Positions 2 to 11,722 of a DNA stretch of 11,722 bases are shown here, in pieces. The notes below the pieces were generated by a model. It was not told where the DNA came from, ran no database searches, and saw nothing but the letters and a program-made list of their open reading frames with translations. Made by a program: the position numbers and the translations under genes. Every line of letters starts with the position of its first letter. Positions within the stretch are counted from its first letter, which is position 1. Source of the stretch: a bacterium (lineage in GTDB: Bacteria; CG2-30-53-67; CG2-30-70-394); contig JAJRSX010000004.1 of assembly GCA_024278555.1 (NCBI GenBank), positions 1 through 11,722 on the forward strand. The letters run 5' to 3'.

Positions 2-1735
2 GCATGGTTTCTCCTCGGGGCGGTTCACGGCGAGTCGGGGCGGTTTGAAAAGGTGATCGTGTGCTGTGAACGTGTGCTGCAACTCGATCCGAAGAATATC
101 GTGGCATATACCAACATCGGTAATGCCCACGCCGCGCTCGGGCGCCACGAGGAGGCTGTGCGTGCCTATGCTCGTGCCCTGGAACTCTCTCCAGATGATC
201 CTGGAGTATTGAACAATTTTGGCAAGGCGCTTTGTCTCGCGGGACGTCTGGAGGAGGCCGCTGAGAAGTTCGCGCGTGCGGTTTCCAAGAAGGTGAATTT
301 TCCAGAGTGCCATTACAATCTTGCAAACGTATATGTGAAGTTGGGAAGGAATGAGGAAGCTCTTTTTCATTATGAGAAGACGGTAGATCAGAGCCCCGAT
401 TATCTCCACGGTCGCCTGTCCTACGCCAAGCTCCTCGGGTCGTTGGGGAGGTTGGAGCCGGCGGAAAAGGAGTATCGCGCGGCCCTACAGTTGTATCCCG
501 ATTCGGTGGAGGCGATGTATGGGCTTGCTGCGATACAGGGCTTCTCCGGCGCGTACGACGATGCGATCAGGACGTGTGAAGAAATCCTTCGCACACGTCC
601 TGATGATCCGCGAGCGATGACGGCGAAGGCCGATCTCTATGAGCGAAAAGGCAAACGTAGAGAGGCGTACTCATTGGTGAGCCTGTTGATCGATCGCGGT
701 CATGTGTCACCTACCTGTGCCAGCCTCCTGGCGCGCCTGTGCGGCGAGTACGGGAACTGCGAGAAGGCGATCGAGATTTGTCGCAGTTTCGTGATGGAAC
801 CCGGTCTTGCTCCACGAGGGCGGCAAGAGATCCTCTTTACGCTCGGAAAGCTTCTCGATCGCCTTGGTCGCTACGATGAGGCGTTCGAATGTTTTGTCGA
901 GGGAAACAGCCTAGAACGTGTGCCATTCGACAGGGAGAAGACCGCGGACGAGGTAGATTGTCTGATTGCGGCATTTGGGCGTGACGCATGGCGGGAGTTG
1001 CCACGGGCGCGATGCGTGGACGAGCGTCCGGTCTTCATCGTTGGGATGCCGAGGTCAGGGACGAGCCTGGTCGAGCAGATACTCGCAAGCCATCCGCAGG
1101 TGTTCGGTGCCGGTGAGTTGACCGATGTAGGAGATCTGGTCCGTTCCCTGCCGGCTACCCTCTACCCGCACTCGATGGTCTCGGCGGGGCAGGACCTTCT
1201 CGATGATCTGTCCTGCAGGTACGTGGAACGATTGAACAGGTTGGATGAGGATTCCCTCCGCGTTACGGACAAGATGCCGCAAAACTTTTTCCATCTTGGC
1301 CTGATCGCAATGCTCTTCCCGCGGTCACGCGTGATTCACTGCATCCGTGACGCGCGAGATACCTGTCTGTCGATCTACTCGCAGAGCTTCAATCTCGCCC
1401 ACACCTACGCAAACGACCTGGACGATCTCGGGTTTTTTTATCGGGAGTACGCGCGACTCATGGCCCACTGGAAGGCGGTGCTTCCGATTCCTATCCTCGA
1501 TGTCGTGTACGAGGATCTCATCGAGAACCAGGAGGCTGTCATCCGCGAGATGGTGGAGTTTTGCGATCTTCCCTGGGACGAGCGATGCCTTCGCTTCTAC
1601 GAGACCAAGAGGGCCGTGGCAACGGCGAGCTACGACCAGGTTAGGAGGCCGATCTACAAGGGAGCGGTGGGTCGCTGGCGGAACTATGAAGGGCACCTGG
1701 CGCCGTTGTTCAGGGTCTTGGGGTTGGAAGAGTAG
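2..1735 (+). CDS. TPR-repeat sulfotransferase, 5'-truncated by the window edge
   Basis: The frame is open from base 2, and the codons before the first candidate start (GTG at 53) already encode TPR-like sequence (AWFLLGAVHGESGRFEKV), so the true start lies outside the window. 577 residues are visible. Residues 1 to about 310 hold about nine tetratricopeptide repeats, a protein-docking superhelix. The C-terminal half is a PAPS-dependent sulfotransferase of the Sulfotransfer_3/tyrosylprotein-sulfotransferase-like type. The 5'-phosphosulfate loop GMPRSGTS is at residues 348-355. A Glu at 372 in HPQVFGAGELTD sits where TPST enzymes have their catalytic Glu. The 3'-phosphate-binding segment CIRDARDTCLSIYSQ carries Arg449 and Ser457. 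Known for the family: transfer of sulfate from PAPS to a protein or small acceptor. Inferred: the TPRs choose a protein acceptor. No signal peptide can be judged. The stop codon abuts the next gene's start. Domain call is firm; the acceptor is unknown. Confidence 0.93.
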   Translation, partial: AWFLLGAVHGESGRFEKVIVCCERVLQLDPKNIVAYTNIGNAHAALGRHEEAVRAYARALELSPDDPGVLNNFGKALCLAGRLEEAAEKFARAVSKKVNFPECHYNLANVYVKLGRNEEALFHYEKTVDQSPDYLHGRLSYAKLLGSLGRLEPAEKEYRAALQLYPDSVEAMYGLAAIQGFSGAYDDAIRTCEEILRTRPDDPRAMTAKADLYERKGKRREAYSLVSLLIDRGHVSPTCASLLARLCGEYGNCEKAIEICRSFVMEPGLAPRGRQEILFTLGKLLDRLGRYDEAFECFVEGNSLERVPFDREKTADEVDCLIAAFGRDAWRELPRARCVDERPVFIVGMPRSGTSLVEQILASHPQVFGAGELTDVGDLVRSLPATLYPHSMVSAGQDLLDDLSCRYVERLNRLDEDSLRVTDKMPQNFFHLGLIAMLFPRSRVIHCIRDARDTCLSIYSQSFNLAHTYANDLDDLGFFYREYARLMAHWKAVLPIPILDVVYEDLIENQEAVIREMVEFCDLPWDERCLRFYETKRAVATASYDQVRRPIYKGAVGRWRNYEGHLAPLFRVLGLEE

Positions 1736-3502
1736 GTGAATCCTGGGAGTACGGCATCGTTTCGGAGTCGTGCGCGACAGCTCGCGCGGGCGGGGGATGT
1801 GCGCGGTGCCCTCGTCCTCTACCGCCATCTCTGCGAGCGCGATGGGGGGGTGGCGGAAGTGTGGCTGGAGCGAGGTTCGCTCTACGGTGCTCTACGCGAG
1901 GTGGGGGAGGCACGTGTCTGCTTCGAGCGCGCGATCGCCCTTCGCCCGGACTTCGCGGAGGCGCACTGCCAGCTCGGTGTGGTCCTCCTCTTTCAGGGCG
2001 ACATGGAGGGTGCGATCGAGAGGTGTGAGGAGGCTCTGCGCCTCGACCCGGAGTCGGTGAATGCGCGCTGTCATCTGGCCTACGCTCTCGATTCGTGTGG
2101 CCAACTGGAGCGTGCGGTCAGGGAGTACCGGACGGCCTACGCGCGGCAGCCCTCGGTGCCGATCTTGCACAGCATCGGCTTCGCCCTCTTGCGTCTCGGG
2201 CGGGTGCGCGAGGCGGTCGAGACCTTCGAGGAGGCGTTGCGCAAGGGGGGCGGAGCCGAGTCGCATGCAAACATCGCGTTCGCCTTGAACTACCTCCCGG
2301 GTGCTCCGGCGGAGGAGGTGTTTGCCGCCCATCGAAGGTGGGGGGAGGCGGTGCAGCAGGGGACGGTGGCCGCGCGGACGGCGTTTCGGAAGCGGCGGGC
2401 GGGTGAGCCTCTCCGTGTCGGATACGTGTCAGGGGATTTTCGCCGCCACTCGGTCGCCCATTTCATCATGCCGCTGCTGGCAAACCACGACCGCAATCGG
2501 GTGACGGTTTTCGGATACTCGAACGTATTGCAGCCGGATCGCATGACCGAGCGGATCCGCGGCCTGTGCGATCGCTGGACCGACATCTCTTCGATAAACG
2601 ATCGTCAGGCGGCCGACAGGATCCGTGGTGACGCCATCGACATCCTCGTGGACCTCTCGGGTCTCACGCGTGGCAATCGCCTGCGTATGTTTTCGCTGCG
2701 GCCGGCGCCAATCCAGGTGACCTACCTTGGATATCCGAACACGACCGGCCTGCGGGCGATCGACCACCGCCTGACCGACCCCCTGGCGGACCCCGTGGGT
2801 GAGACGGATGGTCTCTATACCGAGAGCCTCGTGCGGCTGCCCGAGGGATTCTTGTGCTATGAGCCGCCGGCGGCGGCGCCCGATGTGGCGCCGATGCCCG
2901 CAGACGCGGCGGGCTACGTTACCTTCGGGTCTTTCAACAACCTGGCCAAGATATCTTCCTCCGTACTGGACGGGTGGGCGGAAATGCTTGAGGCCGTTCC
3001 GGGATCTCGGCTCCTGTTGAAGAATGAGGGCCTTGCAGACGGCGCGGCCCGAGAGCGCTTGCGCTCCGAGTTCGCCGCGAGGGGCGTGGATCCGGCGAGG
3101 CTCGAACTTCACGGGCCGGTGCGCAGCCTGTCGGCCCACCTCGACCTCTACCGCCGTGTCGACATCGCCCTGGATACCTTCCCCTACAACGGCACCACGA
3201 CCACCTGCGAGGCGATGTGGATGGGGGTGCCGGTGGTCTCGCTGGCCGGGGATCGACACGCGGGGCGGGTGGGCGTGAGTCTCTTGAGCCGGGTGGGGCT
3301 CGCTGAACTCGTCGCCGAGGGCGAGGCGGCCTACTGTCGGGTGGCCGTCCGGCTCGCGGAGGAGAGGGATCGGCTTCGGGCACTTCGCCGGGGCCTGCGT
3401 GCCCGGCTGGCGGCATCGCCGTTGTGCGATGGCGGCCGGTTCGCTCGGGAGGTGGAGGCGGCTTACGCGGAGATGTCGGGAGGGGGCGCTCGTCGCGGGT
3501 AG
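1736..3502 (+). CDS. TPR-repeat SPINDLY/O-GlcNAc-transferase-like glycosyltransferase (GT41)
   Basis: 588 residues from a GTG that begins on the base after the upstream TAG. GGAAG at 1726-1730 can serve as ribosome binding site, and no in-frame ATG occurs before the TPR region, which supports this start and translational coupling. Residues about 5-175 form five TPR repeats. From about 227 the SPINDLY/OGT catalytic domain starts with RVGYVSGDFRRHSVAH; His238 aligns with the active-site region His of human OGT. Further hallmarks are ILVDLSGLTRGNR, RPAPIQVTYLGYPNTTG, FGSFNNLAKIS (Lys405, equivalent of the UDP-diphosphate-contacting Lys), DTFPYNGTTTTCEAMWMG and PVVSLAGDRHAGRVG, so both Rossmann halves look complete. 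Family role: transfer of a sugar from a nucleotide sugar to Ser/Thr of proteins; plant SPY uses GDP-fucose, so the donor here is open. No signal peptide, so cytoplasmic. Paired with a TPR sulfotransferase, it probably belongs to a protein-modification cluster. Confidence 0.94.
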   Translation: MNPGSTASFRSRARQLARAGDVRGALVLYRHLCERDGGVAEVWLERGSLYGALREVGEARVCFERAIALRPDFAEAHCQLGVVLLFQGDMEGAIERCEEALRLDPESVNARCHLAYALDSCGQLERAVREYRTAYARQPSVPILHSIGFALLRLGRVREAVETFEEALRKGGGAESHANIAFALNYLPGAPAEEVFAAHRRWGEAVQQGTVAARTAFRKRRAGEPLRVGYVSGDFRRHSVAHFIMPLLANHDRNRVTVFGYSNVLQPDRMTERIRGLCDRWTDISSINDRQAADRIRGDAIDILVDLSGLTRGNRLRMFSLRPAPIQVTYLGYPNTTGLRAIDHRLTDPLADPVGETDGLYTESLVRLPEGFLCYEPPAAAPDVAPMPADAAGYVTFGSFNNLAKISSSVLDGWAEMLEAVPGSRLLLKNEGLADGAARERLRSEFAARGVDPARLELHGPVRSLSAHLDLYRRVDIALDTFPYNGTTTTCEAMWMGVPVVSLAGDRHAGRVGVSLLSRVGLAELVAEGEAAYCRVAVRLAEERDRLRALRRGLRARLAASPLCDGGRFAREVEAAYAEMSGGGARRG

Positions 3503-3537
3503 GGGAGGGGCGCGGGAAGTCCTCGCCGTCCTCTCTC

Positions 3538-3570
3538 TCGTCGCCGTTCCGGCTTGATCAAGCGCGACGA
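3538..3570. terminator. inverted repeat between convergent genes, weak terminator candidate
   Basis: TCGTCGC (3538-3544) pairs with GCGACGA (3564-3570), and the 3' part of the loop is a perfect palindrome GCTTGATCAAGC (3552-3563). It lies where the + strand glycosyltransferase gene and the - strand small gene converge, and it overlaps the minus gene's stop codon. There is no T-run on either side, so if it terminates it is not a classic Rho-independent site. GC-rich sequence makes chance pairing likely. Confidence 0.3.
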
Positions 3571-3977
3571 AAGCCCTCTTCCTTCGTCTGGTCGCAAATC
3601 TGGGCATGGGTACGCCGCAGGGAGGCGGGGGTGGAGTAGCGGTGTTGGGCCACTTTGCCGGTGAGGTTCCACACCTCGACCACACGCTCCATGATCTCAG
3701 GCCGCGCGGGGGGAAGCTCCGGGTTGTGGTCGTGGATCTGGATGGTGTCGCCGGAGAGGGAGAGGGAGAAGTGGTCCACGGGAACGAGGCACTTCGCCGG
3801 CAACCCGATGATGACCTTCTCGGGAGGTCCGGTACCCGCGAGGCGAATGCTCAAGTCACCACGGCGACAGACGATAGCCAGGCGATCACTGAGCCGTGCC
3901 CCATGCGAGCCCAATGATTCCAGCAGGTTCTTGATTGCCTTCGCCACCGGGGCCGAGTCGATGTCGATGGTGATCAT
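3558..3977 (-). CDS. hypothetical protein, 139 aa, convergent with the glycosyltransferase gene
   Basis: ATG at 3977 is preceded on the minus strand by a GGGAG-type ribosome binding site about 8 bases upstream; TGA at 3558-3560. The product has an ordinary soluble-protein composition: an N-terminal amphipathic stretch (APVAKAIKNLLESL), a middle part that looks like beta strands (DRLAIVCRRGDLSIRLAG, KVIIGLPAKCLVPVDHF, SLSLSGDTIQIHDH), then a helix with PEIMERVVEVWNLTGKVAQH. No signal peptide, membrane segment or catalytic motif is visible. I do not recognise the family with confidence. The IGLPAKCLVPVDHF segment faintly recalls the start of some SET-domain-like methyltransferase proteins, but the length would cover only a small part of such a protein and no SET motif is present. 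The opposite-strand frames here read as low-quality Arg/Gly-rich sequence, which supports this strand as coding. Transcribed towards the + strand gene pair, so not in its operon. Confidence 0.6.
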   Translation of the reverse strand: MITIDIDSAPVAKAIKNLLESLGSHGARLSDRLAIVCRRGDLSIRLAGTGPPEKVIIGLPAKCLVPVDHFSLSLSGDTIQIHDHNPELPPARPEIMERVVEVWNLTGKVAQHRYSTPASLRRTHAQICDQTKEEGFRRA

Positions 3978-4529
3978 GTCACGGCTCCCGGCGGGCCTTT
4001 ATCGGGCAGCCACGCCGGCGCCTCTCCTGTCGGTTCAGCGCCCGGCTAACGTCCCCAGAGCTGCGTGAATAGCGCTGGCGCCTGAGAGGGGGCATTCTGA
4101 TTTTCGACAATTCCCCATACCGGGAGTGTGGTTTCCCAGGTGTCGTCTGGTCGGGTTGCGGCGACCGACTTCCGGTCAGTGGCACGGACCCCGAGTAGTG
4201 CGCCCGACTGTATCGATCGGATTTCGCTCCTATGGCCGTCTGGATAGCGGTGGTGCGGAAAACGGTCAGCGTTGGTCATCGGCGCGACATTCGATGGCCC
4301 CCTGATGAACGCGGATGGGTGGACCTGTGGCCGGGTGGCGTCGGTGGTGCTCGGACCTCTCTGGTCTGGTCGCGGGCATGGCCTGTTCCTACCAGGGCCG
4401 CGGGTTGCGGCACTTGTTGAGTACACGGGGTCTGTTTGTTCAACTGGCACCCTGTCCATTGTGGTCGGGAGGGCGGCGGTCAGGCGGGCTGGCGGCTCCA
4501 CCTCGTGATCCTACGCAGGGAGGTGCCCC
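3978..4529. other. intergenic region without a recognisable gene
   Basis: About 550 bp between the divergently transcribed 139-aa gene (minus) and the exported-protein gene (plus). Open frames exist on both strands, for example about 4046-4501 minus, but they give Arg/Pro/Thr-rich sequence with no recognisable domain and are not preferred. It should hold promoters for both flanking genes. I see no consensus sigma-70 or sigma-54 site I would defend. A decayed gene is possible. The ribosome binding site of the next gene (GGGAGGTG, about 4518-4525) closes the region. Confidence 0.5.
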
Positions 4530-5603
4530 ATGAGGTCCATCGTCACGGCGTTGCTCGGTCTGTTGGTCGCGGTGGGGACGGCGGCGGCTGTCCCCCTGGT
4601 GGGAGAGATGCAGGTCCTGGATCCATCCGGAAGGGTTGTGCTGCCGCCCACCCCGGTGGCTGGGGTGCTGGACGAGGCGGCGGGGACCATGACGGTCGAC
4701 CCGGTGATGTTCTTCGGATTGCTGATCACGCCGCACCCCTTCGAGCTCCTCGGGGAGGGGAGCCACACGCGGACCGACCCGGCCACGGGTACCCCGCTCA
4801 CCACCACCGTGGGGCCAGGGCAGCTCGGCGCCTTCATGGTGCTCGACTGGGGGGCCAACACCTTCTCCAGCTTCCTCGTCTGGGACGTGGTCACCCACCC
4901 GGGCGGCCGCGCCTTCACCCCGGCGGACAGCGACGGGGACGGGATTCCGGGTCAGGCCTTTACGACCGGCCCCTTCCCTGGCTTCACCCTCATCTACACG
5001 ATGCAGGAGGGGACGCCGCCGCCGGCGGCGATGCTCTCCCTGACCGTGGCGGGCGGCATCCGCCAGGAGTGTGCCGAGGCCGGGGGCAACACGGTCACCG
5101 CCACGGCCTCGGTTGAGCTGGTGGGCGGTGCCGAGCTCTCCGAGGTGCAGTGGACGGTGGACGGTACCAGCGCCGGCACCGGCACGACCATCACCCCCTT
5201 CCTCTCGCTCGGGAGCCATACCATCGAGGCGACCGCGATCCCGGTGGTGGGGGGCTCGGACACGCAGCACCTCATCGTCACCGTGGTGGACACCCAGCCG
5301 CCGGTGGTGGATGCGGCCTTCGTCGACCACCGGACCGGCGAGGTGGTGGCCGAGGCCGCGCGCGGCAAGGTCGAGGTGCGCTACGCGGCCACCGACGCCT
5401 GCGACCCGAACCCCACGGTGGAGGCGGTGGTGGTGCCGGTCTTCGCGGTAGTCGACGGCCAGGTCCTGAAGGTGAAGGGTGAGCACCTGCAGGTGCGCCT
5501 CCCCACCTCGGCCCTCGACCTCACGGTGACCGCCACGGACGCGGCGGGGAACAGCGCCGGCGGTGAGGCCGTCCTCCACCTCCTCCGGTCGCCGGAAGAT
5601 TGA
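4530..5603 (+). CDS. exported protein: shared N-terminal FFG/LDWG domain plus Ig/HYR-like domains
   Basis: 357 residues. The ATG follows a strong GGGAGGTG ribosome binding site. Residues 1 to about 20 are a Sec signal peptide (MRSIVTALLGLLVAVGTAAA, cleavage near AAA/VP). Residues about 24-160 form the domain shared with the genes at 6027 and 8218: DPVMFFGLL, a central LGAFMVLDWG followed by FLVWDV, then DSDGDGIPGQAFTTGPFPGF, which also looks able to bind calcium. After a Pro-rich linker, residues about 170-260 resemble a PKD/Ig-like sandwich (VQWTVDGTSAGTGTT, LSLGSHTIEATA) ending in TVVDTQPPVVDAAF. This leads into a HYR-like domain with TDACDPNPTVEAV and DLTVTATDAAGNS. Such domains occur in adhesive extracellular proteins. 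The C-terminus (HLLRSPED) has no PEP-CTERM tail or anchor, unlike the next gene, so the product is probably released. A perfect long hairpin follows the stop. Specific function unknown. Confidence 0.88.
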   Translation: MRSIVTALLGLLVAVGTAAAVPLVGEMQVLDPSGRVVLPPTPVAGVLDEAAGTMTVDPVMFFGLLITPHPFELLGEGSHTRTDPATGTPLTTTVGPGQLGAFMVLDWGANTFSSFLVWDVVTHPGGRAFTPADSDGDGIPGQAFTTGPFPGFTLIYTMQEGTPPPAAMLSLTVAGGIRQECAEAGGNTVTATASVELVGGAELSEVQWTVDGTSAGTGTTITPFLSLGSHTIEATAIPVVGGSDTQHLIVTVVDTQPPVVDAAFVDHRTGEVVAEAARGKVEVRYAATDACDPNPTVEAVVVPVFAVVDGQVLKVKGEHLQVRLPTSALDLTVTATDAAGNSAGGEAVLHLLRSPED

Positions 5604-5612
5604 CCCGGATTT

Positions 5613-5660
5613 CTCACCGGGAGCGGTGCAGGCCCGGGCACCTGCACCGCTCCCGGTGAG
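5613..5660 (+). terminator. perfect 20-bp-stem hairpin just after an exported-protein gene
   Basis: The left arm 5613-5632 (CTCACCGGGAGCGGTGCAGG) is perfectly complementary to the right arm 5641-5660, with an 8-nt loop CCCGGGCA. It begins 10 nt after the TGA of the upstream gene. There is no T-run after the stem (GAGGCCGTGG follows), so it departs from the classic Rho-independent pattern. Likely roles are transcription termination by a very stable stem or protection of the mRNA 3' end. Confidence 0.65.
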
Positions 5661-5905
5661 GAGGCCGTGGCCGCCAAGGGTTCGGGCGGCGCCACGGGAG
5701 CGCCTGACCGCGGCCGTCGCCGCATCCGGCGGCGTTCCTCGGCGGGGGGGAGGGGGGGCGGACCGATCCGGCGGCCGCGGCTGGTGAAAAACCACCACTG
5801 CTTCCGGGTGGCGTTGTCTCAATATGAGATTGGCATGGGGGAACCGTAAAGAAATACGTCACATTGCTGCGCCGCCGGCACCGCTCGGATCGGGGCCATT
5901 CTTCG

Positions 5906-5931
5906 ATTTATCAGGAGGTTGGGTGATAAAT
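5906..5931. promoter_or_regulatory. AT-rich dyad, candidate operator or leader hairpin
   Basis: ATTTATCA (5906-5913) and TGATAAAT (5924-5931) form a perfect 8-bp inverted repeat separated by 10 bp, so the arm centres are 18 bp apart. It stands out in a GC-rich genome and lies about 95 bp before the ATG of the PEP-CTERM gene. The spacer contains GGAGG, so as RNA the hairpin would hold a Shine-Dalgarno-like sequence in its loop. The binding factor is unknown; chance cannot be excluded. Confidence 0.4.
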
Positions 5932-6026
5932 GCGGTATATGGCGCAGAAATTGCATATTGTTCGAAAGAGTCATGTTCACCGAGGGCTGCATCCGACGGT
6001 GCGGCCCGTGTCGAGAGGAGGGTGTC

Positions 6027-6581
6027 ATGGGTGGTGTTCGGGGTTGGTGGGTGGCCATCTTCGTGTTTCTGGGGGCGGCGTCGGCGCAGGCGGGTGCGCG
6101 GACCGGATGGGGGTGGCGAGCCGCCGATTTCGTGGGGACAGCGACCTTCTACGATGGGGCAGGGGGCGTCAGCGGGGTCTACAGTGCCCAGGGCAGCTTC
6201 GACTTCGATGTGGGAACGGTCGCCCTGAGCGGGATCTCCGATCTCTTCTTCGGGACGACCTGGTCGGTGCCCGGCGGGGCGCTGACCTACAACGGCGGTG
6301 CCGGCCCCTTCAGTTACACCGGTGACCTCTCATTCGACTGGGGTGCCTCCTCTTACCCGGTGGTCGTTCCGTGGGAGCTTACCGACCTCGGTGGGGGGAG
6401 CGCCTCGCTGGCGACGGTCGATGGCAATGGCGACGGGATTCCCGGCCTCCCCATGGCGGCCGGCCCCCTTTCCGGCGCCAGCCTCGCCATTGACGGCACC
6501 CTCACCGCCATTGTCCCGGAGCCGGTGTCGATGGCGCTGGTGGCGGGTGGTTTCGGGTTACTGGGGCTGAGGCGGCGGTAG
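6027..6581 (+). CDS. PEP-CTERM sorting domain protein with the shared FFG/FDWG domain
   Basis: 184 residues. I place the start at ATG 6027 because GAGGAGG lies just upstream and a signal peptide begins at once (MGGVRGWWVAIFVFLGAASA, cleavage near AQA/GA). Residues about 30-155 are the domain shared with the neighbours: a Gly/Asp/Phe-rich start, SDLFFGTTWSV, GDLSFDWGASSYPVVVPWEL, then DGNGDGIPGLPMAAGPLSG. The last 22 residues are a textbook PEP-CTERM signal: VPEP, a hydrophobic helix (MALVAGGFGLLGL) and a final RRR. Known for the family: export by Sec, recognition and cleavage by an exosortase, and delivery to the surface or extracellular polymer matrix in exopolysaccharide-producing bacteria. 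The exosortase gene is not in this window. Probably its own transcription unit, since more than 400 bp with a hairpin precedes it; a possible operator lies at 5906-5931. Confidence 0.9.
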   Translation: MGGVRGWWVAIFVFLGAASAQAGARTGWGWRAADFVGTATFYDGAGGVSGVYSAQGSFDFDVGTVALSGISDLFFGTTWSVPGGALTYNGGAGPFSYTGDLSFDWGASSYPVVVPWELTDLGGGSASLATVDGNGDGIPGLPMAAGPLSGASLAIDGTLTAIVPEPVSMALVAGGFGLLGLRRR

Positions 6582-6672
6582 AAATGTGGGCAGGAGCGGG
6601 TTGCTGCCGCAAGCCTGGGTTGAGCTTGATTTCACGTTTCATCAATTCGTATTCATTTTGAAGGAGATTCCC

Positions 6673-7428
6673 ATGAACGTACCGGAACGATTTCGCACCC
6701 TCGGGACGGGGTGTCGGCAGGGGCAAGCCTGAGCGATTTTGTCCCGGGTGACCCCAACGGCCGCAGTGTCTTCCTGTATGTCCCCAGTGGCGGAGCGGCC
6801 GAGCTGCTCCTCCGCTATCCCCTTGATCCCGCCTCGCCACAGGTGGCGGCCACTGCCGATGGCTCGGGGAGCTGGACCACGGTGACCACGCCGCTCACCG
6901 GTCACATCTGGCTGGAGGCGCCCGCCTCCATGCCGCCGGATCCCTTCGCGCCGGTCCCCTTCACCCTCTACACCGACTTCGTCACCCCCACGCCTACGAA
7001 CCTGTGGGTCGGCGGCAACGGTAACCCGAATCTGCCGGTGACCATGGGCTCGGCCGACGCCCTCGCCGGCGGTGCGAGCTTCGTGTCGGGGCTCGACGCG
7101 AACAATATGCCCTACACCTCGGGCTCCCTCCGTACCGTGGGGGACTTCGGTGGCGAGGGGCTCCTTCCGTGTGTGGCCGCGGGGTGTGAGGTGAGCGCCG
7201 AGCTCAACCTTGTGGAGCTCGACTATGGCTCCGGGATCCCCGGCTTCCCCCTCGATCCCGGCGACCCGCGTTCCCTTCTCTACCGCCAGAGCTCCCGGTT
7301 CCCGGGCAGCGGTGGTTGGGACACCACCCAGTCGTACTATAGTCGCCCCGGTCCCGGAGCCGGCGAGCGCCCTGCTTCTCCTCCCCTGCCTCGCGCTCCT
7401 CGTGGTGTGGCGGTGCCGTACGGCATGA
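6673..7428 (+). pseudogene. PEP-CTERM protein gene with two frame disruptions
   Basis: A strong AAGGAG (6661-6666) precedes ATG 6673, which reads MNVPERFRTLGTGCRQGQA and stops at once. The main body continues in another frame from about 6711 (VSAGASLSDFVPGDPNGRSV and onward, about 210 residues) with normal protein character: VFLYVPSGGAAELLLRYPLD, FTLYTDFVTPTPTNLWVGGN, SAELNLVELDYGSGIPGFPL. It runs out of frame after about GGWDTTQSYYS (near 7340). The PEP-CTERM tail (VAPVPEPASALLLLPCLALL, then WRCRTA, stop at 7426-7428) is in the frame of the original ATG. The two shifts therefore cancel. The N-terminus also lacks a hydrophobic core: MNVPERFRTL runs straight into what looks like the end of a signal peptide (VSAGAS), suggesting a small deletion there. 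Decay or base-calling errors are both possible. The body domain is not recognised and is not obviously the FFG/FDWG domain. Confidence 0.7.
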
Positions 7429-7629
7429 GCTGCGGGGGGTAGGAGGGGGCCATGGGCCCGATCCGCGCCGTAGGCGTGGCGGGCCCTTCGGGCCGGCGGG
7501 ACCTGCCGCCCCGGATCGCGGAGGGAACAAGGGTGTGGTTTGACATGGGGGGCTGGGGTGGCGAGGGGTGGAGGTCAGGCGTCTCCGGTGGTGACCATCC
7601 GCGCGCAACGGCCTGGAAGGCGGTTTTTT

Positions 7630-7790
7630 GCCACGGAACCCACGGAAGCACACGGAAGTAGGGGGCTCCCGTTGGGTTGGGCGAGCGACCCGGACCCCAT
7701 TCCTGCTCGAAGCAGGACCGGCGCTACCTCGTTCTCTTCCCCTCGCCGCGCCTTCTCGCCCCTTCCGTGCGCTTCCGTGGTTTCCGTGGC
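7630..7790. repeat. inverted CCACGGAA-type intergenic repeat arms
   Basis: The left arm 7630-7658 is three tandem units of about 10 nt around CCACGGAA/ACACGGAAG. The right arm 7762-7790 is its reverse complement (CTTCCGTG, CTTCCGTG, TTTCCGTG units) with 27 of 29 positions matching. About 100 bp separates them. A run of six T (7624-7629) directly precedes the left arm. From memory, similar short-unit arrays are scattered between genes in many bacterial genomes and often give spurious hypothetical proteins. A hairpin TCCTGC-TCGAA-GCAGGA (7701-7717) lies between the arms. Confidence 0.7.
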
Positions 7791-7822
7791 CCATTCCCTG
7801 CCGGACCGGAATGGGAGTCCGG
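7690..7822. repeat. second, interleaved inverted repeat (CCGGACCCCATTCC type)
   Basis: CCGGACCCCATTCC (7690-7703) is the reverse complement of GGAATGGGAGTCCGG (7808-7822) apart from one extra base in the right copy. The right copy also forms a local hairpin with CCCATTCC at 7790-7797. The order is arm X (CCACGGAA), arm Y, then inverted X, then inverted Y. The two inverted repeats therefore overlap rather than nest, as if two repeat units with different internal order were inserted in opposite orientation. Confidence 0.55.
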
Positions 7823-7860
7823 CACCGCAACGACGGCGCCATCTTTTCCCTCTTCTCTCC

Positions 7861-7887
7861 CTCTGCGCCGCCGCGCCTCTGCGCGAG
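7861..7887. repeat. CTCTGCG-type short repeat
   Basis: CTCTGCG at 7861-7867 recurs as CTCTGCGCGAG at 7877-7887 with a GCCGCCGCGC spacer. It resembles another common type of short-unit intergenic array (CTCTGCG.CTTTGCG.CTCTGCG). Only two units are clear here and the sequence is GC-rich, so confidence is modest. Confidence 0.4.
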
Positions 7888-7922
7888 ACCCACCGCCGAC
7901 GATGGCGGGCCGCCGCACGGCG

Positions 7923-7952
7923 TTGACACCCGTGTGGCTCATCCATTAGCTT
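7923..7952 (+). promoter_or_regulatory. possible sigma-70 promoter upstream of the large exported-protein gene
   Basis: TTGACA (7923-7928) matches the -35 consensus exactly. TAGCTT (7947-7952) is a poor -10 candidate (3 of 6) at 18 bp spacing. It lies at the edge of the repeat region, about 265 bp before ATG 8218, which would leave a long GC-rich leader. The -35 match alone could be chance. Confidence 0.3.
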
Positions 7953-8217
7953 TCCGCTCTGATTTGTTGGCGGGCGCGGGTCGCGCTGGGTTGGGAGGCG
8001 CGGCCGGAGGGATGCCCGCCGAGGGAGGCGTTGGATGGGTAGTCCATGGACCGGGTGTGAGACGTTGGCCGAGGCGGTGGGTGGCTTCACCCGCCGGCAG
8101 GCGTCAGCCGCCCCGTGGAGGCGTTGGGCCGCCCGCCGCCGTTCCATGGACCTGCCGCACACGTGAACCGTCGCCGGGGGCCACCGCGCCGCCCGGTGTG
8201 AGAAGAGGGAGACCGCC

Positions 8218-11200
8218 ATGAAGTGGATCAAGGGAATGATGCTGTCCGCCGGCCTGATTGTGGCGACCGCGGGCGGGGCGCAGGGCGCGGCGATGACGTC
8301 GGGCACCTTCACGATGCTGGATGGCACCGGAGGCGGCGTCGGCACCTTCAACGATGTCACGGGAGCCATTGACGAGGTGGCCGGCACTTTCTCGGTGGCC
8401 TCACCCTCGCCCTTCTTCGGCCTCCCCTGGACCGCCCACGGCGGCACTACCTTCGGGCCGGGGACCTACACCTTCGACACGGTGGAGGGGGGGATCTACA
8501 CCGGCGTGGTGGTGAGCGCAGGTCAGGTGGGAGGGCACATCCTCTTCGACTGGAGTACCTCCGCGGACATCGACGTGATCAACGTGTGGGACGTGACGGT
8601 TGCCGGTGGCGTGAAGACCTACACCTCCACCGACCCCACGGTCGGCGGCCCCGACGTGAACCCCGACGGTAAGCGCGGTGTGGGAATGGTCGATGGCCCG
8701 TTTACCACCTTCAACGCCAACTTCGACTTCACCGTCGCCTCCTGCGGCGACGGCGTCGTGGACACGGCGGCGAACACGACGAGTATTGATACGCCGGAGG
8801 TGTGTGACGACGGGAATACCACCGGCGGCGACGGCTGCTCCGCCGACTGTCTCTCGGACGAGACGTGCGGCAATGGGATTGTCGATACGAGCGTTGGGGA
8901 GCAGTGTGACGATGGCAATACGCAACCCCTCGATGGTTGCGACGCCTCGTGTCAGCTTGAGACGTGTGGCAATGGGTCGCTCGACCCGGGTGAGGCGTGC
9001 GACGACGGCAATACCACCGGCGGCGACGGCTGCGCGGCCGACTGCCTGTCGGACGAGACGTGCGGCAACGGGATTGTCGATACGAGCGTTGGGGAGCAGT
9101 GCGACGACAGTGGTGAGTCTACGAACTGCAACGTGGACTGTACGACGGCCGTCTGCGGGGACGGTAAGGTGAATACCACCGCGAATGAGGGGTGCGACGA
9201 CGGCAATACCACCGGCGGCGACGGCTGCGCGGCCGACTGCTCGAAGCTCGAGGTGTGCGGTGACGGTACTCTGGACATAGGTGAGATGTGTGACGACGGG
9301 AATATCGCCGAGGGGGATGGCTGCGCCGCGGACTGCTCCGCGGTGGAGAGCGGCTACACCTGCGCCACGGCCGGTTCAGCTTGTACGACCACCTGTGGCG
9401 ACGGGATCGTCGCCGGTAGCGAGGCGTGCGACGACGGGAATACCACCGACGGCGACGGCTGCTCCGCAGACTGTCTCTCGGACGAGACGTGCGGCAACGG
9501 GATTGTCGATACGAGCGTTGGGGAGCAGTGCGACGACGCCAACACTAACGAGCGTGATGGCTGTCTTGTTACCTGTGAGACGGACGGCGATCAGGACGGT
9601 GTCTCGGATGCCGCCGACGCCTGCGATGCAGGAGGCGGTTTTTCCGGGCCCTTCCCGGACGGTACCCTCCTCGCCTTCGAAATGGGTCAGCAGCCGGGCG
9701 GGGCGGGTACCGATGTGACCAGCGGCTCGTACTTCCAGATGGGGGCGACCGGGGATCCGAACGCGGCACAGGTGCCGATCGGGCCGGGGCCGGCTGGGGG
9801 AATCGTGACCGGTCAGGTGCAGGCGGCTTCGGGAAGCCATGGCGGCTCGCCGGATGACGCGGGCCATTGGTGTGCTGAGAAGACCACGGCATGCACCACC
9901 GATGGGGATTGCGCAGGGCTGACGCCATCCTGCGATCTGGGGACCCAGACCTGCAACGACAAGGAGACGGGCTGTACCTCGGCTGCCGACTGTCCGGCGA
10001 TTGATACATGCACTGTTTCCGAGTCGCCGACCATTGACACTCCATGGGCCTTCTTCAACAACACAGGAATGCATTTCACTACCTCGCCGATTACCGACAT
10101 CGGCGATGGGACCATGGATTTCTCCGGTTGGCGAGTAACGTGGAACGGCATCCCGGCGATCAACATGGGGGCTGGCGCCCCAGCCACGGTGGCCATCGAT
10201 GGTGACCGTTTCACCGTGGATTACGCCACGACGGTGCCCGAAGGCGATCCCTCCGGGTTTGGGGGGGTTCCGTACTCCCTTCACCTCGAGGGGACCTTCG
10301 TCCTCCCCGGCGGCGCTCCTGGCGACCAGGATTCGGATGGTGTGGCGGACGAGAGTGATAACTGCGTCAACGTCCCCAACGTCGACCAGGCGGATGCCGA
10401 CGAAGACGGCCTCGGTGATGCCTGCGACGCATGTCCTAACGATGTCTTTAACGACCTCGACGAGGATTGCCTCTGTGGCGACTTTGATTCGGACCGCGAC
10501 GGCGACGGCATCGCCAACGCCGACGATCCCACGCCGGATGACACCACCGACACCGACGGCGATGGCCATATCAACAACGTGGACGACGATGACGACGGCG
10601 ACGGCATTTTCGATGTGGACGATGCCAACCCGCTGGTCTTCGACGACTTCGACGGTGACGGTATCGGGGACGGGTTTGACGACGACGATGACGATGACGG
10701 CGTCCTCGACGTGGACGACGCCTTCCCGTTCAACGAGTTCGAGTCGGTCGATGCGGACACGGATGGCCTCGGTGACGAGGCGGATGCTTGCGATGGTGCG
10801 CCGGCCGGTACGGTCTTCGCTGGGGTGAAGAGCTCCTCGTTGGTCCACGCCTCGGCGGTGGGGGATCCCATCGGGCCGGGGACGCTGCTGACGATCACCC
10901 CGGCGACGGGTGATTGCGCGCCCAATGACCCCTCCACCGGGTCGTGCTTCTACATGGAGGTCTCCACCGGGATCTTCACGATCACCGCCCTGCACGCGGG
11001 GGCGGACGGGGGCATCGTCTTGGGCCAGGCCCAGGGCCATCCGGCCTTTGCCGACCAGCAGGTGCTGGTCTCCGATCCCAGCGCGCTAGATCCGGATCCC
11101 ACGACCCTCGATGAGACGTGGTCTTTCTTCTCCAACCCGGGAAATTCCTTTACCACCGGGGATGGCATCACCACGACCACCCTGTCGGACGGGGTGACCG

Positions 11201-11722
11201 ATGCGTGGTCCTTCCGCACCTGGACGATCTTCTGGAACAACAAGGAGATCCCCCTGACCGCGGGGCTTGATCAGGTCTTCGGCAACGACGACGACCTGGT
11301 GCCCATCGTGACCGACACCACGGGGCTCGATCCGTTCGTGGATAATTATTTTATGGAGCACGCGGACGGTACGTATGAGCTGGTCTACAACGCCCTGGTG
11401 CCGAACACGCCGCCGTCCGGCTTCGAGGGGGTCCACTACACGGCCTTCCTGCGCGGGCGGGTGGTGCGCTCCTCTGGTGGGGTGGTGGACCAGGACGGTG
11501 ACCTGGTGCCCGATGGTGACGACAACTGCATCTCGGTGGCGAACACCACCCAGAAGGATACGGACGGTGACGGCGCGGGCGATGCGTGTGATGTCTGCCC
11601 GACGGATGCCCACGACGACGCCGACGGCGATTGCCTGTGCGCCAACCCGGACGATGTCGCGGGAGCCTTCGGTTTCGACTCGGACAACGATAACGACGGC
11701 GTGGCCAATGTGGACGACGACA
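8218..11722 (+). CDS. giant exported protein: shared FFG/FDW domain, cysteine-rich repeats and TSP3 repeats, 3'-truncated
   Basis: Open from ATG 8218 to the window end (1168 codons, no stop), after GAGGGAGA. Residues 1 to about 24 are a Sec signal peptide ([23 protein letters not shown]). Residues about 27-172 are the domain shared with the genes at 4530 and 6027: [62 protein letters not shown]. Residues 176-454 are eight Myxococcus-type cysteine-rich repeats, consensus CG.G..D.GE.CDDGNT..GDGC.ADC. Next comes a Cys-containing module with W610 in [16 protein letters not shown] and [18 protein letters not shown]3 calcium-binding repeats follow at about 702-861 ([27 protein letters not shown]). 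A second copy of the module is at about 862-1090 (W968 in [16 protein letters not shown]), then a second TSP3 array from 1091. Extracellular, disulfide-bonded and calcium-stabilised, probably matrix or adhesive. Whether it ends in a PEP-CTERM or other tail cannot be seen. Confidence 0.92.
8743..9576 (+). repeat. eight tandem cysteine-rich repeats (Myxococcus cysteine-rich/DUF4215 type)
   Basis: Repeat starts (the Cys of CGDG/CGNG) are at 8743, 8866, 8965, 9061, 9154, 9256, 9394 and 9490, giving units of 31 to 46 residues. Each has the pattern CGxGxxD...CDDGN...DGC..DC; unit 4 is degenerate after CDD ([11 protein letters not shown]) and unit 6 carries a longer tail with three extra residues pairs around [15 protein letters not shown]. 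Some stretches are identical at DNA level (see 8854-9537), showing recent unit duplication or conversion. Confidence 0.9.
8854..9537 (+). repeat. three copies of a 60-bp sequence inside the cysteine-rich repeats
   Basis: Copies at 8854-8913, 9049-9108 and 9478-9537, each encoding [20 protein letters not shown]. The second and third are identical over all 60 bases; the first differs at three third-codon positions (AAT/AAC, TGT/TGC, GAT/GAC). A further pair of near 48 bp, 8998-9045 and 9193-9240 ([16 protein letters not shown]), is also identical. Such identity where synonymous changes would be free indicates recent copying. Confidence 0.85.
10321..10800 (+). repeat. thrombospondin type 3 calcium-binding repeat array, first copy
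   Basis: Encodes residues about 702-861, very rich in Asp, with repeated DxDxDGxxD motifs: [96 protein letters not shown]. Paired Cys residues occur in the typical DNC/DACDACP positions. Such arrays fold around many calcium ions in exported proteins. Confidence 0.88.
11488..11722 (+). repeat. thrombospondin type 3 repeat array, second copy, cut by the window edge
   Basis: Starts [20 protein letters not shown] and continues [39 protein letters not shown]. It follows the second copy of the large module just as the first array follows the first copy, including the D.D.DCLC element, so the whole module plus array is an internal duplication with a period of about 360-390 residues. Confidence 0.85.

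Follow-up and report, generated by a model that had tools for sequence, protein, structure and literature searches.

The window (contig JAJRSX010000004.1 of assembly GCA_024278555.1, an 11,722-nucleotide stretch analysed at its full length, which is the complete contig C83 of genome G000; 3.06 Mb in 211 contigs) encodes three neighbouring proteins, A, B and C, each of which starts with a signal-peptide-like stretch and all of which share one homologous domain, FFG. The reading that we favour, with moderate confidence, is that FFG is a secreted, calycin-like up-and-down barrel that serves as an interchangeable head on surface or matrix proteins with different tails. FFG proteins are probably a display module of the "choice-of-anchor" kind, working in an exosortase/exopolysaccharide system.

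One domain in three neighbouring exported proteins

An earlier note, made from the sequence of the window, had proposed that these three exported proteins carry divergent copies of a shared domain, and both parts of this claim were borne out. The motifs that it had singled out, among them VMFFGLL, DLFFGTTW, DLSFDWG, NGDGIPG and GVGMVDGPF, were all found in order in the translations of A, B and C. By BLASTP, A and C were 31% identical over 143 amino acids (E 3e-10), A and B 35% over 78 (E 5e-7), and B and C 30% over 141 (E 1e-3). We then compared the proteins to a profile of 30 FFG domains, all from other genomes and with no row from the window (the set was collected using an earlier profile that contained window rows; the test profile was without them). 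This external-only profile matched C (E 6e-39), the copy of a sister genome (2.5e-38), a further copy of G000 on contig C52 (7e-21), A (2e-14) and B (6e-8), its best E among 1000 shuffled control sequences being 0.6, so that one profile detects all three proteins of the window. HHalign, run with forced global alignment, gave the FFG domain of B a probability of 97.

Residues conserved in FFG (numbered as in the domain of C) are F42, F43, G44, W47, H50, G58, D87, W88, D115, D126, G127, G130 and F138, and it is possible that the Asp/Gly loop at D126-G127 forms a calcium site. H50 tends to co-occur with H83 (21 sequences with both, 6 with neither and 8 with one; p 0.015, a statistic that ignores relatedness).

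At the sequence level, FFG is covered by no family in Pfam, NCBIfam or the PDB. Among NCBIfam models none matched the FFG stretch at E <= 1 in the window or in related proteins, except for a match of the C52 protein to Npun_F0296_dom that stayed below the cut-off (14.7 bits; cut-off 29). The best E of a PDB sequence search was 0.35, and searches of phages, plasmids and viral contigs returned no relatives. Placing one domain before several anchors is a known concept: the choice-of-anchor domains of NCBIfam (e.g., choice_anch_U, NF041766) resemble FFG in that a homologous extracellular domain precedes varied C-terminal anchors, yet no curated model of these families matches the FFG stretch, and the FFG family itself is new to Pfam and NCBIfam.

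Predicted fold

The AlphaFold model of the C domain (mean predicted local distance difference test score, pLDDT, 88.9; predicted template modelling score, pTM, 0.84) consisted of eleven strands and no helix, and that of the B domain (pLDDT 87.2, pTM 0.81) had its long strands in the same order; along the FFG strands, hydrophobic and polar columns alternate. The C model was nearest to BcnA (5ixh; Z 10.3 over 115 residues at 2.8 A), followed by E. coli YceI (1y0g; 9.9), TT1927b (1wub; 9.6) and 7bwl (9.5), with six YceI-type chains spanning Z 10.3-8.8 and designed barrels at 9.0. The B model scored 9.1 with YceI, 9.0 with TT1927b and 8.6 with BcnA (YceI-type chains, Z 9.7-8.5), and 9.3-12.3 with designed barrels and OmpW/OmpA. 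Among natural soluble proteins, both models were nearest to the YceI/BcnA lipocalin-like group. Used by itself, Foldseek returned no PDB structure below E 0.001 and nothing from viral proteins. The FFG domains of C and B are thus predicted to be up-and-down (meander) beta-barrels of one class, both being all-beta meander models with which the same YceI/BcnA structures align, and not unrelated folds.

Membership of FFG in the YceI family (PF04264) was considered and rejected. The predicted fold is alike, a lipocalin-like up-and-down barrel as in the bacterial lipocalins, but the likeness is in fold only and the sequence comparison shows no kinship: hmmscan found no match to PF04264 in 11 FFG members at E <= 10, and HHalign gave a probability of 0.1 between FFG and YceI sequences from the same genomes. 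FFG also differs from YceI in sitting inside modular anchored proteins.

Tails and domain arrangements

The tails seen on FFG proteins comprise PEP-CTERM (on B, the C52 copy and many gammaproteobacterial copies), Cys-type hydrophobic tails (for example GGCSISTKPVNARERGDWWLVAGFLAWLGL-RR), dockerin, DUF4215/TSP3 (thrombospondin type-3) arrays and the tail of A. One homologous domain is therefore found upstream of at least two kinds of anchor (PEP-CTERM, Cys-type hydrophobic tail, dockerin), in agreement with the earlier proposal that a single domain is joined to parts with different predicted fates. In other bacteria, too, the tails of FFG copies point to different destinations, with PEP-CTERM (for exosortase), Cys-type anchors, dockerin or none. 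The domain's N-terminal position, also proposed in the earlier note, holds for A, B and C but not throughout the family, given that FFG stands mid-protein or is repeated at four other loci (L011, L013, L033 and L034). Where it occurs two or three times per protein, it alternates with immunoglobulin (Ig)-like domains (L013) or follows cadherin-like repeats (L011).

As for the three tails of the window, that of B was correctly named as PEP-CTERM: it scored 19.7 bits with TIGR02595 (cut-off 16) and 10.9 bits with PF07589, below the cut-off of 20.7, and its end, VPEPVSMALVAGGFGLLGLRRR, reads directly as a PEP motif, a hydrophobic stretch and a basic end. The Cys-rich array described for C was recovered as seven DUF4215/TIGR02232 repeats, with weak matches for the TSP3 part. 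The Ig/HYR-like assignment of A's tail found no support in Pfam (best E 0.18-0.3) and was dropped as a named family; the tail itself is, by sequence, a real conserved module, being 41% identical over 191 amino acids (E 2e-39) to the tail of a protein (L076, 14188-15510, - strand) of the gammaproteobacterial genome G166.

That G166 protein is headed not by FFG but by D2, a second repeated domain, of which C holds two copies. D2 was tried as a distant relative of FFG, and profile-profile comparison gave no support for this. The D2 proteins of G166 include one with A's tail, one with PEP-CTERM, and one with choice_anch_U and a Cys-type tail, the last encoded directly behind a FadL-like gene. D2 thus uses three of the same tail kinds, and the two domains are distinct heads that draw on overlapping tails; choice_anch_U followed FFG or D2 in 4 of the 9 proteins scanned. 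On contig C84 of G000 (L057), a D2 protein (676-2625) and an NHL-like repeat protein of 1047 amino acids (3451-6594) have near-identical dockerin-like C-termini, ending SITDLI...VRSHFGSHLGP / SITDLILVRGHFGSHLGP.

B and the C52 protein resemble known PEP-CTERM/exosortase proteins (PMC1569441) in their signal peptide, PEP-CTERM end and sigma-54-like upstream site, and G000 encodes two exosortases (PF09721, 2.9e-77 and 1.9e-63). The site of B lies 71 nt upstream of its gene (1 mismatch; 0.17 expected per window), and a weaker one precedes the C52 gene (2 mismatches; 0.95 expected). Sigma-54-type motifs have been reported upstream of PEP-CTERM genes (Haft et al. 2006, PMC1569441), and because these sites match that report, the view that B and the C52 protein are ordinary members of a PEP-CTERM system is supported. 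Unlike them, A is without an anchor, the end of C lies beyond the contig, and the relatives linked to FadL use other tails.

Descent and distribution

G000 holds four FFG copies, three in the window and the PEP-CTERM copy on C52; this fourth copy, D2 and the broken PEP-CTERM gene of the window are additions to what the earlier note had described. Of eight genomes of the phylum examined in all, the six besides G000 and its sister were devoid of FFG, and among 369 genomes sampled across the class of G043, a gammaproteobacterium, 8 had it, with up to eight matches per genome. Relatives in PEP-CTERM-rich proteobacteria, which the earlier note had mentioned, were indeed found in PEP-CTERM-rich Gammaproteobacteria.

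Its suggestion of an old duplication did not hold. C shares 66-70% identity with L011, a gammaproteobacterial copy, and with the sister copy, against ~31-34% with A and B; in a tree of 35 FFG domains, in which A and B have long branches and an unsure exact placement, it grouped with those same two copies, apart from A and B. With the same caution about the long branches of A and B, the approximately unbiased (AU) test rejected A, B and C as one clade (p 9.7e-6) and all five copies of the genus as one clade (p 0.0034). Local duplication is rejected, as C groups with gammaproteobacterial copies and not with A or B; separate gains by horizontal transfer would fit the three proteins better, the set of the window having presumably been assembled from separate lineages. 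Unlike the window copies, two near-identical tandem FFG copies in one 467-amino-acid protein of G126 (L065, 12703-14103) are a recent internal duplication.

Gene neighbourhood and competing explanations

FFG genes lie close to three kinds of gene, the FadL link being seen in Gammaproteobacteria. Over 12 FFG-bearing genomes (assuming uniform placement, with genome sizes rounded and contig ends hiding some links), 9 of 46 FadL-family genes lay <=200 bp from an FFG gene, where 0.08 would be expected (P 1e-16); at <=10 kb from one lay 11 of the 18 glycosyltransferase family 41 (GT41) genes (0.19 expected) and 19 of the 65 sulfotransferase genes (0.75 expected). That bacteria unrelated to each other have FFG genes close to the same enzymes for adding sulphate and sugar hints at a cell-surface system so far unstudied. 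We found no paper on the pairing of FFG with FadL-like proteins and tetratricopeptide repeat (TPR) enzymes, nor any treating PEP-CTERM together with FadL, with sulfotransferase and tetratricopeptide, or with choice-of-anchor, in a search that left most subscription journals outside.

On the favoured reading, FFG proteins would be exported by Sec and then held by their tails at the outer surface or in an exopolysaccharide matrix, where the barrel would bind a ligand (a glycan or a small hydrophobic compound) or pack with other heads; the recognition or assembly role suggested in the earlier note is thus plausible. The TPR enzymes probably modify the FFG proteins, as FlmG does flagellins, or the associated polysaccharide. 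Several points weigh against this reading. The barrel class is common and says little on function, and in the case of B, the scores of OmpA, OmpW and designed barrels equal or exceed those of the YceI group. C is incomplete, as it runs off the contig with its C-terminus outside. The families tested for linkage were picked after they had caught attention, in genomes that are partly related, and no FadL gene lies next to the FFG copies of G000 and the sister genome.

The FadL linkage raises a different explanation, which we consider unlikely: that FFG is a surface lipocalin feeding a FadL-type channel, whereby the barrel passes a hydrophobic ligand (lipid, isoprenoid or hydrocarbon) to the adjacent FadL-like protein, with PEP-CTERM and unanchored forms collecting ligand further out. 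A gene for a FadL-like outer-membrane protein directly adjoins the head gene in nine Gammaproteobacteria, as well as in the D2-headed case of G166, and the soluble folds nearest to C, YceI and BcnA, bind lipids and antibiotics (BcnA: PMC5350466). Moreover, PEP-CTERM was found on none of the 9 FadL-linked FFG proteins and on most of the unlinked ones (11/16 to 16/21 in two counts; Fisher p 1e-3 to 1.4e-4, with tail types assigned by eye). However, the copies of the window's own genus have no adjoining FadL gene, the profile-profile comparison with YceI mentioned above showed no likeness, and FadL-type proteins also serve other roles. The FadL-linked heads at L065, L069, L070, L071, L074, L011 and L077 carry Cys-type tails of the form G-C-[ST/A]-x...-W-[WL]-L...-RR; at E <= 1 they had no match among the sorting-signal models of NCBIfam, and they are possibly an unlisted sorting signal. 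Away from FFG genes, divergent pairs of FadL-family genes recur (L106, L107, L108, L109), one member being canonical and the other nearer to the FFG-linked subfamily.

Equally, FFG could be a recognition handle for the two TPR enzymes: TPR-GT41 and TPR-sulfotransferase would attach to FFG and D2 proteins and modify them while these are still in the cytoplasm, an idea that we judge improbable. FlmG provides the precedent, as its TPR part selects the client of a cytoplasmic glycosyltransferase (PMC7591256). Like FlmG, the window's GT41 product joins a TPR part to a GT-B glycosyltransferase; the clients of FlmG are flagellins, whereas here the enzyme and the gene linkage are what is seen. Clustering with both enzyme types is strong in two phyla, and the two enzyme genes accompany FFG at three separate loci of the genus (the window, C52 and L012 of genome G001), the last being the locus of the C orthologue in the sister genome. 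Against this, three FFG genomes (G043, G044 and G181) are without GT41, and an exopolysaccharide export gene set lies near the same cluster (L077, G166), making polysaccharide an equally good substrate. In the G166 cluster, export-type genes (judged by sequence appearance) follow the FadL and D2 pair, and at L011 the genes for GT41, FadL, FFG and a Wza-like export protein stand side by side, the last directly after FFG. A contig of G001 with no FFG gene (L081, C2, 386-6213) carries three successive TPR-sulfotransferase genes with a TPR-GT41 gene close behind.

There is a slimmer chance still that these elements form an undescribed two-part surface system of FFG/D2 barrels and the adjacent FadL-like protein, in which anchored lipocalin-like heads would capture a hydrophobic ligand for the FadL channel, while tail swapping and decoration by TPR enzymes would spread the same head over layers of the envelope and matrix. 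Least probable is that FFG is an inert spacer, a stable beta module without a binding role like Ig or cadherin repeats. In favour of a spacer, FFG copies in tandem are interspersed with domains of Ig-like and cadherin-like type; against it, specific residues (F42 F43 G44 ... F138) are strongly conserved, single copies form whole proteins (B, C52) and FFG genes pair with FadL.

Returning to FFG as an interchangeable barrel head, independent mixing of heads and tails explains how one domain comes to have many predicted destinations. As Haft et al. (2006, PMC1569441) note, the homology of PEP-CTERM proteins to known ones is slight, and most of the numerous PEP-CTERM and related surface proteins have no assigned role; FFG offers concrete handles on them in its predicted barrel fold, set of swappable tails and conserved neighbours.

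Layout of the window

The genes follow one another on the + strand in the order TPR-sulfotransferase, TPR-GT41, A, B, a broken PEP-CTERM gene and C (Table 1).

Table 1. Coordinates of the features of the window
Feature	Position	Strand	Basis or remark
TPR-sulfotransferase (Sulfotransfer_3), 5' end open	2..1735	+	PF13469 2.4e-44; conserved neighbour
TPR-glycosyltransferase family 41 (OGT-like)	1736..3502	+	PF13844 3.5e-58; conserved neighbour
Protein A, 357 aa: signal peptide, FFG domain, conserved unanchored tail	4530..5603	+	
FFG domain of A, residues ~22-164	4593..5021	+	External-only profile E 2e-14, alignment
Tail of A, ~190 aa module	5019..5600	+	41% identity to tail of D2-headed G166 protein, E 2e-39
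Inverted repeat directly after A, 27-nt arms, 89% complementary, 8-nt loop	5606..5667	unassigned	
Sigma-54-type (-24/-12) promoter-like site TGGCGCAGAAATTGCA	5940..5955	+	1 mismatch to TGGCACRNNNNTTGCW
Protein B, 184 aa: signal peptide, short FFG domain, PEP-CTERM	6027..6581	+	
FFG domain of B, residues ~22-165	6090..6521	+	External-only profile E 6e-8; model pLDDT 87
PEP-CTERM sorting signal VPEPVSMALVAGGFGLLGLRRR of B	6513..6578	+	TIGR02595 above cut-off
Broken PEP-CTERM gene	6711-7428	+	Between B and C
Protein C, >=1168 aa, open at contig end	8218..11721	+	
FFG domain of C, residues 25-176	8290..8745	+	External-only profile E 6e-39; model pLDDT 88.9
Seven Cys-rich DUF4215/TIGR02232 repeats in C	8740..9582	+	PF13948 2.9e-32, TIGR02232 7.5e-51
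D2, first copy, in C	9658..10305	+	
TSP type-3-like acidic calcium-binding repeats in C	10324..10389	+	PF02412 E 9e-4, below cut-off; more D-rich stretches after
D2, second copy, in C	10960..11469	+	

A continuation of C past the contig end was looked for and not found; C84 has another D2 protein, with a dockerin-like end. The inverted repeat that follows A is a possible terminator. In the apparently broken gene, the open reading frame at 6711-7442 loses its frame near 7335, while that at 7312-7428 reads ...IVAPVPEPASALLLLPCLALLVVWRCRTA; the break is either a true frameshift or an assembly error.

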